Below, piece by piece: positions 5,186 to 13,400 of a stretch of DNA of 64,000 nucleotides. The stretch is from Acytostelium subglobosum LB1. Its lineage: Eukaryota > Evosea > Eumycetozoa > Acytosteliales > Acytosteliaceae. Both the position numbers and the translations under genes were made by a program. Each line of letters starts with the position of its first letter. Within the stretch, counting starts at the first letter, position 1. The notes under the pieces were generated by a model. The model did no database searches. It saw nothing but the letters and a program-made list of their open reading frames with translations, and had not been told where the DNA came from. The stretch lies in assembly GCF_000787575.1 (NCBI RefSeq), contig NW_012236528.1, positions 1,085,818 through 1,149,817 on the forward strand, read 5' to 3'.

Positions 5186-5504
5186 GTCTTAAAGAAATCT
5201 AGATACTTGCAATTCTCTCTATTAGGTATCAAGTGTGTACGTCATACATGCAATAGGGTCTTTGTGTGGGTTGGTGTAGTCTCGGGTGGGTGGGGTAGAC
5301 GACCGGTCGTTCCTGTGAGTTTGATTCAGATCTGACGCAGTTTACAATATTTATCAAGACCTTTATTCAATTCCATATTAATAATTTATTTATTCAAATA
5401 CAACCAAATTACAGTTACTCAAATCCACTTCAAAATAATTTATTAATTATTTATATTTATTAATTATTTATATTTATTATTTATTTATTTAATTTTATAA
5501 CAAG
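5186..5504. other. Gene-free AT-rich spacer
   Basis: About 320 bp, increasingly A/T-rich toward the next gene (TTTATTAATTATTTATATTTATT-like repeats just before 5505), a composition typical of dictyostelid promoters. Nothing else is recognised. Confidence 0.35.
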
Positions 5505-5732
5505 ATGAGGACATTCAACATAATCAATATCTCAATATGGCTGGTAGTGATGTTGGTATTACTGGTATCCAAGAGTAATGGAGAGTCTACATACCACGAG
5601 TGTGAATACAACTGTTATTTAAATGAGCAGAATTGTCTCTACAGCTGCGATTTGAACCGCAGAAGCTATTGCAACTGTTTTGACCTAGCTCTCAACTGTA
5701 TTGCCATCTGTGAAGGTTATTATTATAAATAA
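5505..5732 (+). CDS. Small secreted cysteine-rich peptide
   Basis: 75 residues. A hydrophobic signal peptide (about 1-26, ending SNG) is followed by a 48-residue mature region with nine cysteines and many tyrosines, in CEYNC, CLYSC and CNCF spacings. A compact disulphide-bonded secreted peptide is likely. The upstream sequence is AT-rich and a strong hairpin lies downstream at 5814-5845. No family is recognised. Confidence 0.6.
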   Translation: MRTFNIINISIWLVVMLVLLVSKSNGESTYHECEYNCYLNEQNCLYSCDLNRRSYCNCFDLALNCIAICEGYYYK

Positions 5733-5845: not shown

Positions 5846-5984
5846 TCAATAATAATATCTTGATCAGATGATTTGAATTGGAATATATATGTGACTTCGA
5901 AGGAAGGAATGTTGTCATTCAATTAATTTATTGAAATATAAAAAAACTATGATATTTAAGATATTATTAATTATTTTTATAGGA

Positions 5985-6045
5985 TTAACCCCTAAAGACA
6001 GAGATAGGCTGCGCACTAAGTGTAAGCGGGGTGTTGGTGCACCCC
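5985..6045 (+). repeat. Left terminal region of piggyBac-like element
   Basis: TTAA, then CCCCTAAAG, then about 30 bp, then GGGGTGTTGGTGCACCCC at 6028-6045. The last motif is itself nearly self-complementary at its ends (GGGGT with ACCCC). Confidence 0.8.
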
Positions 6046-6492
6046 CTTACTTTATTTGGAATTAATTGTGCACAGTTTTGGAAAGTTACAAGTCAATTGG
6101 TATTGACCTGTTTATTGTAGGGTAAGGATAACAAGAAAGAGCCACAGATGACTAGACGGAGAAGGTGATCGAGCCCAGCGTCGGTTGCCAATAAGTAATG
6201 ACATGATCCCTAGTGATGGACAACAAGTGTGATGGACTATGGCAACTAATCTGATTGATGGATTAATGATGGGATGAACCAGGTGTTTGATTGATCAATT
6301 GAGTGCATCAACAACATTAGTAAATGTGGTCAGTGAGTAACATCAGTGCAGACCGGACCTTGATGAGGACCTGGATCCGTCTCTTGAAGAGCGAGATACC
6401 TTTGGTGGTGTTCTAAGAGTTGGTCAATGGACTGGAAGGTGTCCGCTGTCTGCAGTGGCATGGGTCAGTGACAAATATTGTTGTCCTATCCA

Positions 6493-9400
6493 TCATCGTC
6501 TGGGTTGTTGTTGATCCGCTTGTCGACGATCTTTTGTTGAGGTGGACGATGATGATTGTGATGATTGTGATGATTGTGATGATTGTGGAGATGTTGACTC
6601 CTTCCAAATGTATGAATGTTGGNGGTGTTGGGGTTGGTGCGGCACAGCTGGCAACGATGCTTGTTGTTGCTCCACCAATGATGGCGATGTTTGGGACAAC
6701 GATGGTGGAATGTATCTCNTGCGCTTCTTAAATTCTGGAAGTTTGGTCAGGACCACATCTGGATACTGATCCGACTGTGTGGATGTCAATGATCCAGCAG
6801 CTTGCNTGATAAGGTCTATATACCTGATAACCTGATAAAAAAAAAGGAGCAGGCGGAAAACTGCTCCGAGCAGCGAGGTTCTGAGGCGGCGCAATGGATG
6901 TCTCACTTGGAAGTGGATCAAGTTGGTGTATCTTCAAGTGCTTGTTGTGGTAGATGNTTGAACACTCTTGATGCAACACTATATGGCAACACAGGCAGAC
7001 GTTGGTGGNATCTCCTCGATTGTCTCTATTCGTCTCTCCCTTGTCAACACAGTGTACGCACTTGAGAAGTCTCCGATTTTGTTTAAAGTCTGTGGCCACA
7101 TCCATAGCATGTTTGGAAATGGTTGGCTTGTCAACATTGGTGCCAGAGGTAAACATGAGGTTGTTCTTGGCAATCTTGATCCTTTGCTCTTGGGAGAAAT
7201 GATGGAAANTTTGATGGCGAGGCATGTAGAAGACGTTTGTGGTGTTGACATCTCTGCCCTGGGGCAGCGTGCAGCGTGGCAGTGGTGGGAGAAGATATCC
7301 GTTGATCGCCCCCAGCAGGTGGTCTCTGAAACAAATGGGCTTGTCTGGTTGGCAAATCATGTTGAACAGTACCATTGAATTCCAGGCCAATATATAAAGG
7401 GCGTCATGAAGAAGTACCCTCCAGAAGGTACGAGCTCGATGAACATTCCTGTTGGGATTGATGACCATCTTGGTGCTGTCCACATAGTTATGACTAACAT
7501 TATAACAGAAGACAACCCTTGGTGCCTTGCGGGTAACGGTCATATGACGTGAGGATCTATGTTGTTGGTGTTGATAAGAGTGTTAGTACATTGTTATTGT
7601 ACGTTGTTACACCATCGATCTCCTTCATTCATGATCCAAACGCACCTCTTCTCGTGGCCAACTNTGTCGTACATGCGCAAGGGATTTGGGATGTTGGTTA
7701 GGAAGTAGCAAACCTTCTTATCCCTTGCTCTCCAGGCTATCGCCGTGCTGAATGAGTTGGCGCCGTATACAACGGTGTCCACAAATTCCTTGTCGCTGCT
7801 TGCCTTCCTTCTGAGGACGATGCACTGCTGTCGATAGTTCTCCTGCTCCTCAGTGCTCAACCTCAGCCAGTAGTTGACTTGATTGCTTCTCTTGCTGCTG
7901 CTGCTGCTGCTGCTACCTCGGGTATTGTTGTTGTTGTTGTTGTTGTCATCCTCTTCATCTTCATCGTCATCCTCATCTTCATCTTCATCAAAATCATAGT
8001 CGTCATCCTCACTGTCGTTGTCCAACCAATGCTCCATGGTTTGCTTGGCATGCTTCGCCCTCCTATTCTTTCTTTCCATCTGTTTCTTTATCATCTCGTT
8101 GTAACTCCTCTCCAAGTACTGATCATTGATAAATAGAGGAGTGAATACATCAAAAGAGTTTGACCTCGATAGAGAAACAATGAAGTACTGGTTCCTCTTG
8201 GATAGTTCCTGAACGTTCTCATAGGTACCAAGAACTCCTATTGAAGTTGACGTGTGTGTGCAAGGATGGTGTCAATGATAATGTGATCCAAGGTGATCCA
8301 TCATGATCGTGCTAAAAATGTTGAACTTACCTGCGTCAATGGCGAAGCATCTGCTCTCCGTGGGTGTGGACTCTCCAGGCAGTTGGACTGCGTGGCGCAT
8401 CATATCGTCCATGATCAGTTTGTTGACTGGCACTCCTTCCGTGCCATTGGCCTTGATGACATACTCCTGGGAGAAATGGTAGATGTACTTATTCTCATCC
8501 ACTAGCTTCCATGTTACGCCGCATCGGTCAGCCTTCCCAGTGATCATCTTCTTTCCTCCTCCAAATCCCATCCACTTGTAGAGATCATCGTCCAAAGAGA
8601 GGAAGGGTGACTTCCTATAGAAGTTCTTGATGATCAAGTTGAGGTCTGTCCGTAGCCATTCGTAGCTTGTCTGTTGGTTGGACTCTCGATTGGCAAAGCC
8701 AGGCATGTGAAGACATCTATCATATTGGAATGTATATGAATGATTGATTGAGTGATAAGTAATTGAGAGATAATTGATTGATCGATTGAATGTGATTGAA
8801 TAGACTGACACTTACCGATGGATCTGCTTGAATCTGTACCAAGACATCAGTGATTGGTACTCTGGTTTGTAGAGACTCAGTCTGAGACTAGCCTTTTGTT
8901 GGTGATTCCAGCATTCTTTGATACTGTTCACTCTGTCCAATCCCAAATGAAAGAAGATGGCAAAGTAGGCCTTGAGCTCTGTCTCTGAGATATCTGAGCC
9001 CCTTAGATACCATGGCATGGATCTTGGAGCTTCATCTTCCTCGTTGCTATCATCATCATCGTCGTCGTCGTCATCAGTGATCATATCATCAAGGTCAAAT
9101 TCATCATCACTGTCGCCATCATCCATGTCCTCGTCCTCGTCCTCGTCCTTGTCATTGGACTCAGTCTCATCGTCTTTGGCATCTTCATCTTCATCATCCT
9201 CCTTGTCCAAATCAAACAATTGGCCAGAGTTAGCCGCCACCAAGTCTGAATGAGTTCTTGAAACTGGATTCAGTCTCTCTTCATATTTCTTCCGACCAAC
9301 AGCACGGTACCTGTGATGTAGTTATCTACGTTAGACCATCTGATCCGTACCAATACTATTGTTGTGCCACTGGTGCCATCACTTACTCATTGGTTGCCCG

Positions 9401-9733
9401 ATGGAGAGCACCAAGAACAGTCTTGAAGTAAAGTTTGAATAGATATGGCGCACCTCCCTGACGAGCCTTGCTCAGCTTATCAGCCATCTCTTTAGTAAGA
9501 TGATCGCTCTGTACATATGATGTGTCGAATGGTTGTGTCTTCATTCGCTCATCGAGGTTCATCTCTCCCCTCTCCTTCGCTGTAGGACTCTTCTTCTTTG
9601 TTGCATTTGTTGTTGTTGTTGTTGTTGTTGTTGTTTGTTTGTTCTTTTTCAATGCTTGCTTTGTCTTCTTGGATCTTGAGCGAGTGATCACTGGGTACAC
9701 ATCCTCATCCTCTTCNGCTACATCTGCATCCAT
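6493..9733 (-). CDS. piggyBac-family transposase, six exons
   Basis: Exons 9733-9387, 9310-8816, 8716-8331, 8237-7603, 7525-6907 and 6815-6493 all join in phase to about 934 residues without a stop; introns are about 75-100 bp. The N-terminus is basic and low-complexity, then comes a long Asp/Glu region. The DDE domain follows. The first catalytic Asp is in SLDDDLYKW, the second in CFAIDAG, and the third in the HNYVDSTK motif. The last corresponds to the family's GGVD motif and is followed by a WRVLLHDALYILAWNS helix. A C-terminal cysteine-rich finger (CVHC, CLCC, then C and H) and a basic, Gln/Ser-rich tail complete the layout. A second Asp/Asn/Ser low-complexity insert sits between Asp2 and Asp3. 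Intron 4 (7602-7526) and the acceptor of exon 6 are the least certain joins. The three aspartates, finger and flanking TTAA suggest a potentially active element. Confidence 0.85.
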
Positions 9734-10068
9734 TGATGGATGCTCTGCGTTTTGATGCCATTGTTCATTGGGTTTTAGTGTATATATATCCCCTCGAACA
9801 AAGTCTGTTTAGGTGTACAGTATGAGAATAAAGTCTTGAGTGTGTATATCAATCAATTATTCAACTCCCAACATACTGTATCTGTTTGTATATTGTTTCT
9901 TCCTACTATTGGATGATGTTGCATGCTCTGTATCTCTATCTGTGTTTGTTGTAGAAGACATGGCGTGTTGACAATGAAATTGAACAAAGACAAAGAGCAT
10001 GGGATTGTTAATGTNGTTAAATTAAATTTAATTGATAAAAAAGGAAATTAGGGGTACTTATTACCTAT

Positions 10069-10106
10069 GGGGTACACCAACACCCCAACTACACCTTAAG
10101 GGTTAA
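10069..10106 (-). repeat. Right terminal region of piggyBac-like element
   Basis: Read on the minus strand: TTAA, CCCTTAAGG, then GGGGTGTTGGTGTACCCC (10086-10069). The 18-bp motif lies about 16 bp from this end but about 39 bp from the left end, so the termini are asymmetric. Confidence 0.8.
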
Positions 10107-10434
10107 TCGCAATCTCGAATGGTAGTGACAATTCTCCTGCCATTCTCTATTTGAATACTAGAAGAACTTTATTATCTTACCAGGGTGATTATGTTGTAGG
10201 GGAAAGTTCAGATCAACTAAATCAAAATGCAGATGACTTTTTAATTGATGTCCTGAATTCAAAAGGATAACATTGATACATTTCAAGGACGAATGAAGCC
10301 TTGAAACAGTTTGCAAAAAGGCGCCTTTTTTCTTCTAATATAGTAATAATAAATAAAGACAACACGTTTATTCCTCACCCTTCATTATACATGATATATA
10401 TATATATATATATATAAATACTAGTACTAGATAG
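10107..10434. other. Spacer between transposon and CAP-D2 gene
   Basis: About 330 bp with a TA dinucleotide run (about 10391-10416) shortly before the CAP-D2 start. No gene is seen. The TA-rich stretch may belong to the CAP-D2 promoter. Confidence 0.35.
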
Positions 10435-13400
10435 ATGACATCTGTTGAGTTCTTGATACCTATACATTATGAGGACTTGGAGTCTGCCTCACACAATGTC
10501 AATGATGATGATGATGACTCTGGCGACACAACCACCGACAAATACACAATACGTAAACAAATCAATGTATTAGAGTTGTCAGACAATACAAAGTTAAAGA
10601 CATTAGATGGTATGTTATCGTCATTCATTCATTGATTGATTGATACTAACATTCATTCAACATAGATATACATTCAAGGCTTACAAGGGATACATTGGAT
10701 ATACTCAATCACAACAACTTTGATCCATTGTTCTACTTTATTGGGTATGTCTATTTAGACTTGAATATCAGTATACGCGAAGGCTAACACAACAACAAAC
10801 ATACAGCAAGATACCATCGTTACCAAATGATGTAAAGAACCAGGTGTTGTCAATATTACAGACAGGCCTGACAAAGATACATCCTGTTATACAGGACTTG
10901 ATTTCAAAGTCCTCTTCAATGAATCATGGCTCAGACGATTATACAGTGCATCTGCAACAGGTCAGGAACTCACTAAAGATATACGTATTCTTCATTCAAT
11001 GGTTCAATCACTTTTCGACCAATGACAAGTCGGTGTCTGCGTCGTCAGGCGCTGGCGCGTCTGGCTCATCGGGCGCCACCACCGCCAACTCCAAGAAGCG
11101 AAAGACATCCAAGCAGACAGGCGTCGAGGAGATACATTGGGAGCAAGAGGGCAGCAAGGAGCGCACACTCACGCTCCTACACAGTCTGCTCGAGCTCAAT
11201 TTGGCACAGCTCTGGAAGCTCGACTGTCCCGAGGAGGCATTCGTACAGATGATCACCAGGATGGTCTACGCAATGATTGAGAACCAAGCCAACATCAGAA
11301 GCAAGCCAATCAAACAGACACTGTTTGCGATCATCATCATACTGGTACAGCGCTACAATCATGCACAGATGATCACAGACAATGTGGTCCGTCTGCTCAA
11401 TGCCCACGAGCACCTGCCGCAGCACATGGCCGAGCTCTACGGCGCCATCACATCGGTAAGCGAGGGCGACAAGCACACCCATCTCGTGGCCGATGCCGTT
11501 CGCGAGATTGGCAAGATCACATCGCGCGACCTCCACGACAATGCCGGCGTGCGTCACATGTCAGAGTTCATTGGATTGCTCGCCAGCAACGTACCGGGCC
11601 TCATGCAGCCATTGCTGCCATCACTGCTCCTCCAGCTGGACAATGAGAACTACGCCGTCAGGAACGGTGTGATCGACTCGGTGGGCCACCTCATTGAGCA
11701 CGTGCACAAGAATAAGGAGGCTCCCAACAGGAAGACCACGCTGGACAGCCTCTTCCAGACACTGTTTGACAGGTACCGCGACGTGAATCCATACTCGAGG
11801 AACAAGGTACTGCAGACTCTACTTAGTCTGTTGCCCAAACACTTGGTGCCGCCACGCCACTACCGACACGTGGTGGAGATTGCCATTGGCAGGATATCGG
11901 ACAAGGTGTCGTGGACGAGGAAGTACGCGATGCAGCTGTTCAAGGCCACGCTCAAGCATCAATACTACTCGGCCGTGCTCAGGTCAGACTTCTTTGAGCA
12001 GCTCAACGAGAAGTTCCACAGGCTGGAGAACGACCTGCTGGAGCAGGACCAGGGATCACAGATGGTCGATGACAATGACGATGAGGCGCTCGAGCAGGAC
12101 GACCAGGGTGACGACGAGGAGGGCAAGAAGAAGCCAATGTTTGCCAACATTCAATCGCTCAAGATTGACAAGGCGCAGCTGCAGGACCTGGTCGAGAACA
12201 CGCCATATGTGAGCACGGTCGACTTCCCGCCAAGCAAATGGATCTCCACAGTGTTCCCCAAGATGAAGTCGTGGATTGTGGAGACGACCAAATTCATCAA
12301 GTTGATCGAGCAGCCAATGGACACCATTTGCATGCTTCTGGGCAGCGTCAACAACAGTGACGTGCTGGAAGCCATCAAAGTCATACTGAAAGCTTACAAG
12401 CTGGGCATCTCCAACTCCAAGCAGGCTTTGTCCAAGATGCTCGTACTGATCTGGAGCAAAGAGCAGCCAATCAAAGAGGCTACAATCGATGCCTTCAACA
12501 AGATCATTGTGCCCAATGACTCTGATCACTCTCCCAAAGAGCCCTACCTTATTGCCAAGCGATTGATTGAGTAAGTGTACTGTAGTTGTGTGATTATAAT
12601 GTCGTCTCGATGTCTAACAGATACCTCCAATCTCACCTTAGCCTGACCTTTGGAATGACCTTGGGAGAAATGACATCGTTGGAAGAGTTGGTCAAAGAGA
12701 TGATGAAGAAGCAGTTCTTGAAGCCAAGCGTTATACATGCACTTTGGGATATCTTTTGTAAGTTTGATTGATTGATCCATTGATTGGCGATGCGATGCAA
12801 GCCCACTGACTCGCTCCCCTTTGTCATTCATCCAGCTGGAAAGGTACAACAATACAACAGCAGTGAGGATATACGTGGAGCATTGATTGTTCTATCGATG
12901 GCGGCCAATGTCGATCACAACATCGTGGCTGAACGAGTCAACCTATTGGTCACCAATGGACTGGAATCAAACAAGAATGTATGTGGATGGCAGACAAACA
13001 AGGTTGTGGCCCATGTCGACTAATCAATCTCCCTCCTCATACTACTCCAGGACGATGAATACGTACCAAGGTACACATGCATCACACTACAGAAGCTGCG
13101 ATCGGAAGAGGGCGTCACATCGTCCAAGATGCCAAGGATCAAGAATGACCAGGTCATCTTTGAGAAGTTGATCGATCATATGCTTCAGCAACCAACGTCA
13201 CAGTCGCGATGGTTGATGTTTGCCGAGCAGGCCATCAACACGATATACACGCTCAGTGAGCAGCCCGAGGCCTTGTCGGCCAAGATACTCAAGAAGTTGA
13301 TCGCTCAGATCAATCAACAGACGCTGGAGACGGTGGACAGCCAACTGCTGAGCAGGTTCATCTTCATCCTCGGTCACATCGCCCTGAAACAACTAGTTCA

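Follow-up and report, generated by a model that had tools for sequence, protein, structure and literature searches.

The stretch of DNA analysed here, called the window throughout, comprises 64 kilobases (kb) of the genome of Acytostelium subglobosum LB1. Between positions 5985 and 10106, it carries an element of 4,122 base pairs (bp), counting the TTAA copy on either side, with a transposase gene on the minus strand. An earlier note, made from the letters of the window alone, had described this element as an apparently complete and potentially active piggyBac in a dictyostelid. The host is indeed a dictyostelid and the element was found with both ends and a six-exon transposase gene, and we are highly confident that it represents a full-length cut-and-paste DNA transposon of the piggyBac superfamily.

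Boundaries of the element and the interrupted reading frame

Copies of TTAA lie at 5985-5988 and 10103-10106, and TTAA is also present at a second left end of the same element located at C20:126098; the flanks beyond are different in each case. Next to the TTAA copies, the element ends in inverted CCC tips, CCCCTAAAG on the left (5989-5997, plus strand, the 3' side of the transposase gene) and CCCTTAAGG on the right (10094-10102, read on the reverse strand, the 5' side), so the ends agree with those reported in the earlier note. The terminal repeat is short, since the tips have 3 bp exactly in common and match at seven of nine positions, with two transitions.

When the flanks are joined at one TTAA, an open reading frame (ORF) of 67 codons with a signal-peptide-like start is obtained, which runs from an ATG at 5949 to a stop ending at 10270; its 5' part occupies 5949-5988 and its 3' part 10107-10270, both on the plus strand. 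A paralogue lacking the element is found on the same contig at a distance of about 177 kb (C52:914738, L048), and the alignment of both over 163 columns, with 76% identity (E 1e-26), crosses the junction without a gap. Excision of the element would restore this host ORF, and the restoration on joining at one TTAA would be consistent with seamless excision. A protein database search with the restored 67-amino-acid sequence (one candidate) gave no match.

The genome assembly (30.7 Mb in 56 contigs) was searched by queries and by stretches, and all counts given for it are minimum numbers. The two left ends and the one right end are the sole perfect matches in these 30.7 Mb to an 18-bp repeat situated inside the ends, which is treated further below. 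Since perfect matches of this internal repeat are limited to the known ends, and since the comparison with the empty site crosses the junction, the element is not a product of chance. The left end at C20 starts at the identical base and, over 452 columns, differs from that of the window by a single substitution and a one-base indel outside a short tract; within this tract, inspection by eye shows A at 26 of 26 mismatches, which suggests an assembly fault close to a gap. The search for further copies and empty sites that the earlier note had recommended thus turned up this left end at C20 and an empty site in a paralogue, while a second complete copy is absent from the assembly. An old left end, 76% identical, or 80% over 87 bp, is present at C33:482882, and most of the weaker genome matches of the element fall, by position, in codon-repeat tracts (e.g., window 7879-8019).

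The transposase gene and its product

The transposase gene was rebuilt on the minus strand from GT-AG sites, which predict six exons, whose phases all agree, coding for 934 amino acids (aa). This is the same length of stop-free frame that had been proposed before, and with five introns, all GT-AG, the gene is intron-rich as claimed. It starts with the ATG at 9961 in exon 1 (9877-9961) and continues through exon 2 (9387-9804), exon 3 with an acidic tract and the start of the PF13843 match (8816-9310), exon 4 with the first catalytic aspartate (Asp) in LSLDDDLYKW (8331-8716), exon 5 (7646-8237) and exon 6 with the motif HNYVDSTKM and a C-terminal Cys/His stretch (6728-7556). The introns are 72-99 bp long and each of the five adds at least one stop to the frame when retained. 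A sixth intron (6906-6816) is possible, followed by a seventh exon at 6493-6815, without homologue support, which would extend the protein to 982 aa. Nine single ambiguous bases (N) lie within the element, six of them in exons.

The spliced protein matches PF13843 (DDE_Tnp_1_7) with E 1.8e-18 and 67.4 bits, well above the cut-off of 22.4. This was the profile comparison suggested in the earlier note, and together with the TTAA/CCC ends it supports the piggyBac identity. Two protein database searches with the transposase, which scored the 7,985 and 7,994 candidates with most words in common, returned the public model P0001 and five relatives, namely P0002 (eukprot gene18564-22212), P0003 (Heterostelium album PPL_11147), P0004 (D. 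discoideum ACTFIW_008078), P0005 (D. cf. discoideum ACTFIZ_012737) and P0006 (D. purpureum DICPUDRAFT_83128). The relatives are known here as proteins alone and several of them resemble partial gene models. PF13843 and IDAGxLG are each present in all six rows of the alignment (P0001-P0006), and (F/L)SxDDDL(Y/F) in five of the six. The A. subglobosum LB1 database protein SAMD00019534_025990 shares 98% identity with the transposase across 64% of the searched stretch.

At introns 2, 3 and 4, the public model P0001 (545 aa) has the same junctions as the rebuilt gene. The junction of intron 2, between TNE and Y, is read through by P0003, and those of introns 3 (between IHR and C) and 4 (between IDAG and xLG) by both P0002 and P0003. 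At intron 5, whose donor is GTGCGT, the public model is spliced otherwise. P0002 and P0003 continue, as does our exon 5, beyond the point at which P0001 leaves it (here VCYFLTNIP) and resume at PR...Y, which leaves room as to the exact intron 5 junction. Because these two relatives continue past that point, the 545-aa public model appears to be cut short, and the 934-codon model looks the better of the two. Exon 1 and the C terminus beyond the Cys/His stretch are without a convincing homologue.

The earlier note had placed three catalytic Asp and a C-terminal Cys-rich finger. The first Asp stands on an alignment, since in the profile match to moth piggyBac (PDB 6x67, E 8.7e-5) D268 falls over the first D of SLDDDL; a profile comparison (E 7.3e-7) also aligns it with the IDE of families A and B, two further piggyBac families of this genome. 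The second and third (moth D346 and D447) lie outside the reach of the 6x67 alignment and were placed by motif only: the candidates are the Asp of IDAG, conserved in six of six proteins, and that of Y-x4-NYVD, which judged by eye matches the published Y-x4-GGVD motif. The finger could be located as a Cys/His stretch, CVHC...CLCCHIVLHQEC...YH, similar to CFYC...CFCHNIALHKDC...FH in P0003, where it follows the pattern CxxC...LHxxC...FH. A zinc domain of this kind is common, but not universal, in the superfamily, and a fourth Asp (D450 in the moth) is usual without being defining. In the motif HN(Y/F)(V/I)Dx(T/G)KM, a K takes the place of D450 in four of four spanning proteins, that is, in the element's own and in P0002, P0003 and P0005.

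Recent transposition and alternative explanations

That the element has moved is strongly supported by the second left end, the restored ORF, the paralogue colinear across the insertion point and the distribution of ambiguous bases. All nine isolated N found in the 64-kb window fall within the 4,122 bp of the element, for which the chance is 1.9e-11 if they were uniformly placed. Elsewhere, 13 were counted in 30,334 bases of other transposase loci and five in 91,263 bases of other loci; of these last five, two belong to the present element itself (L047) and two more to the sequence flanking the C20 copy. Since the genome paper, in the text available to us, judged diploidy unlikely (PMC4334915), the likeliest cause of the isolated N would be the collapse of near-identical copies. 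Transposition was probably recent, because further near-identical copies have probably been collapsed or lost in assembly gaps, and present activity is possible.

Several observations weigh against the interpretation as a full-length, probably recently moved piggyBac element. The terminal repeat is imperfect and only about 9 bp long, and one complete copy is assembled. A gap of 6,341 N truncates the left end at C20, with no right end beyond it within the stretch read, and a genome search with P0002 found transposase sequence at this locus only (four of four matches). The empty site belongs to a paralogue (76% identity) and not to an allele, it has TTCA for TTAA and its own frame is shifted. 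Regarding the protein, an AlphaFold2 prediction of P0003 from six rows reached a predicted local distance difference test (pLDDT) of 37 and a predicted template modelling score (pTM) of 0.28, the placing of the second and third Asp depends on motifs, the match of the Cys stretch to 6x67 is non-significant (0.8 bits), so the finger claimed earlier stands as a located Cys/His stretch, and there is K instead of D450. Finally, the isolated N could also come from poor reads in a gap-filled repeat.

Part of these observations would suit a dead or dying piggyBac copy, complete in outline and with a transposase that no longer works, either due to the K at D450, to the weak intron 5 donor or to mutations under the ambiguous bases. 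We regard this as unlikely, although it is the strongest of the alternatives, and it is compatible with a full-length piggyBac transposon except on activity. The six N in exons and an assembly with two left ends and one right end only speak in its favour, as does the K at the fourth Asp, given that moth D450N was impaired in excision in cells. According to the same source, as far as its available text goes (PMC2533014), D450 is the least critical of the four Asp in moth piggyBac, and others found D450A to be active in vitro. Moreover, as all four spanning proteins have the K, it is a feature of the clade and not a sign of decay of this copy. The transposase frame is open, and the single substitution and single indel separating the C20 left end from that of the window, outside the faulty tract, also argue against a dead copy.

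Retention by the host of a domesticated piggyBac gene, with the ends as leftovers, would fit the occurrence of relatives across Dictyostelia, the intron-rich gene and the one transposase locus in the assembly. Domesticated transposase genes are normally without element ends, however, and the matched ends flanked by TTAA, the second left end with an identical boundary and the ORF interrupted here and free of the element in its paralogue point to a recent insertion, for which reason domestication was rejected as very improbable. An artefact in which the assembler joined exons and ends from different copies, as the clustering of isolated N in the element and the gap-cut C20 copy with its all-A tract might suggest, is the least probable and was also rejected, since the boundaries, the open six-exon frame and the restored ORF would be unexpected from misassembly, and even a mosaic built from near-identical copies would amount to the same element. 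In our reading, the locus holds a genuine element of a known superfamily that has probably been mobile recently.

Internal palindromes and comparison with other piggyBac elements

The 18-bp internal repeat, GGGGTGTTGGTGYACCCC, is absent from the earlier list of features and is itself palindromic, with arms of 5-6 bp. One copy, GGGGTGTTGGTGCACCCC, lies at 6028-6045 on the plus strand, at bp 40-57 from the 3'-side tip, and the other, GGGGTGTTGGTGTACCCC, at 10069-10086 on the minus strand, at bp 17-34 from the 5'-side tip. Both have 17 of 18 bases in common, compared to a maximum of 15 in 1,000 shuffles, and the repeat forms the centre of the longest inverted repeat in the element (26 nucleotides, 85%; first of 12). 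Palindromes with 5-bp arms are frequent by chance, with 0.77 per shuffled left end (the real ends list 4 and 5); the palindrome alone is therefore not significant, while its sharing between the ends is. With up to two mismatches, the repeat was found at six places of the genome, the three perfect ones at the known ends and three with two mismatches, and at none with the backwards control. An exact search for TTAACCCYTAARG also gave six places (the two ends of this element, the left end at C20 and three places lacking the internal repeat), and the reversed pattern gave two. In the old left end at C33, the GGGGGT/ACCCCC arms appear by eye to be retained and the centre to be changed.

Like the piggyBac of the moth Trichoplusia ni (PDB 6x67/6x68), the amoeba element has TTAA as target, CCC tips, a DDE_Tnp_1_7-type transposase with an aligned first catalytic Asp and a putative C-terminal Cys-rich stretch, albeit one that matches 6x67 with only 0.8 bits. 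It is unlike the moth element in its five or six introns, its acidic insertions, the K for D450, another palindrome sequence, the short imperfect tip repeat and its 4.1 kb. We take the moth left end (LE) to be the 5' side of the transposase. In the moth, the palindromic repeat bound by a dimer of the Cys-rich domain is at LE bp 17-33 and the copy in the right end (RE) lies farther in, so that both elements have near-identical and asymmetrically placed palindromes at their two ends; the available portion of that structural paper also states that, with the native enzyme, the asymmetric LE/RE pair alone both excised and integrated in cells, and it terms the asymmetry of piggyBac ends enigmatic (PMC7351741). 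In piggyBat of Myotis lucifugus, palindromes are likewise read by the C-terminal Cys-rich domain (binding in the amoeba element is predicted), but the imperfect palindrome occurs three times on the LE and is missing from the RE (PMC11707139), unlike the one shared palindrome per end of the amoeba element and of moth piggyBac.

If the amoeba element works as moth piggyBac does, a transposase dimer would use its three Asp to cut at the CCC tips, TTAA hairpins would form and insertion into TTAA would follow. The palindromes, at bp 17-34 on the 5' side and bp 40-57 on the 3' side, would be bound by the C-terminal Cys/His stretch, and this placing would lead to an asymmetric synapsis of the two ends. 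The coincidence at position 17 with moth piggyBac is suggestive. With somewhat less than even confidence, we propose that an asymmetric palindromic site for the Cys domain might be an ancient and conserved trait of the Cys-domain branch of piggyBac, common to the amoebozoan and moth elements despite their differing palindrome sequences, with a dictyostelid branch that has K at D450.

The same genome contains two other piggyBac families. Family A (L049-L053, L057-L059) is characterised by TTAA followed by CCCTCAAGGCGCGAACT, is about 2.18 kb long and has a single uninterrupted frame of 500 aa (PF13843, 271 bits). TTAA is present at nine of ten listed ends, the exception being L058, and 13 of 15 genome matches are 96-100% identical, a count that includes the query and pieces of a single copy. 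In the copy examined, the tips are identical over 17 bp and there is no shared internal repeat (best 13/18). Family A thus resembles the window element in PF13843 and TTAA, and differs from it in the uninterrupted frame, the long identical tips and the lack of a shared internal repeat. Family B (L054, L055, L056/L063 and L065, on C23, C54, C6 and C32), of about 2.49 kb, also has an uninterrupted frame (PF13843, 107 bits); 13 of 20 tip bases are common, the matched pieces are 98-100% identical and no internal repeat is shared (best 12/18). Its flanks read TCGA at six of six distinct ends in four loci. A target other than TTAA is unusual for piggyBac, and the open-licence literature gave no obviously relevant title on a TCGA-targeting one. 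By eye, no C-terminal Cys-rich stretch was seen in the frames of either family, of which that of Family B may be incomplete. As these two families of the same genome, without a visible Cys stretch, have no shared palindrome, Cys domain and palindrome site appear to occur together.

One genome with three piggyBac families, which have introns or none, a shared end palindrome or none, and TTAA or TCGA flanks, provides a natural setting in which to ask why the ends of piggyBac are asymmetric and what sets target choice, and the dictyostelid element, if active, might serve for insertional mutagenesis in social amoebae. The A. subglobosum genome paper, in its available text, counted one DNA transposon (PMC4334915). 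Searches of the open-licence literature gave no paper on piggyBac in Acytostelium, with Repbase outside this scope and a prior description elsewhere possible, and no title on such an element for piggyBac and Polysphondylium.

Some minor observations concern related fragments and the neighbourhood. Short pieces like the transposase 3' region, 85-86% identical and without element ends, lie at C7:6197 (L011) and C48:1223156 (L012); the first, within an apparent coding region, corresponds to window 6406-6518, and the second to window 6101-6192. A host-like protein of 563 aa (L060:2791-4482; C47:557746-558135) has a weak match of 25 bits to only the first 121 positions of the PF13843 profile, with low-complexity flanks, and is possibly a domesticated piggyBac N-terminal domain. 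Next to the element, the small secreted-protein-like ORFs at window 5493-5732 and 5949/10270, the second of which is the interrupted gene, may be co-duplicated on this contig, about 177 kb away (L048, approximately 1200-1660), where the second alignment match is short and the copy is frame-shifted. On the other side, the product of the gene adjoining the element (window 10724-12574) contains the N-terminal domain of condensin subunit 1 (Cnd1_N, 108 bits).

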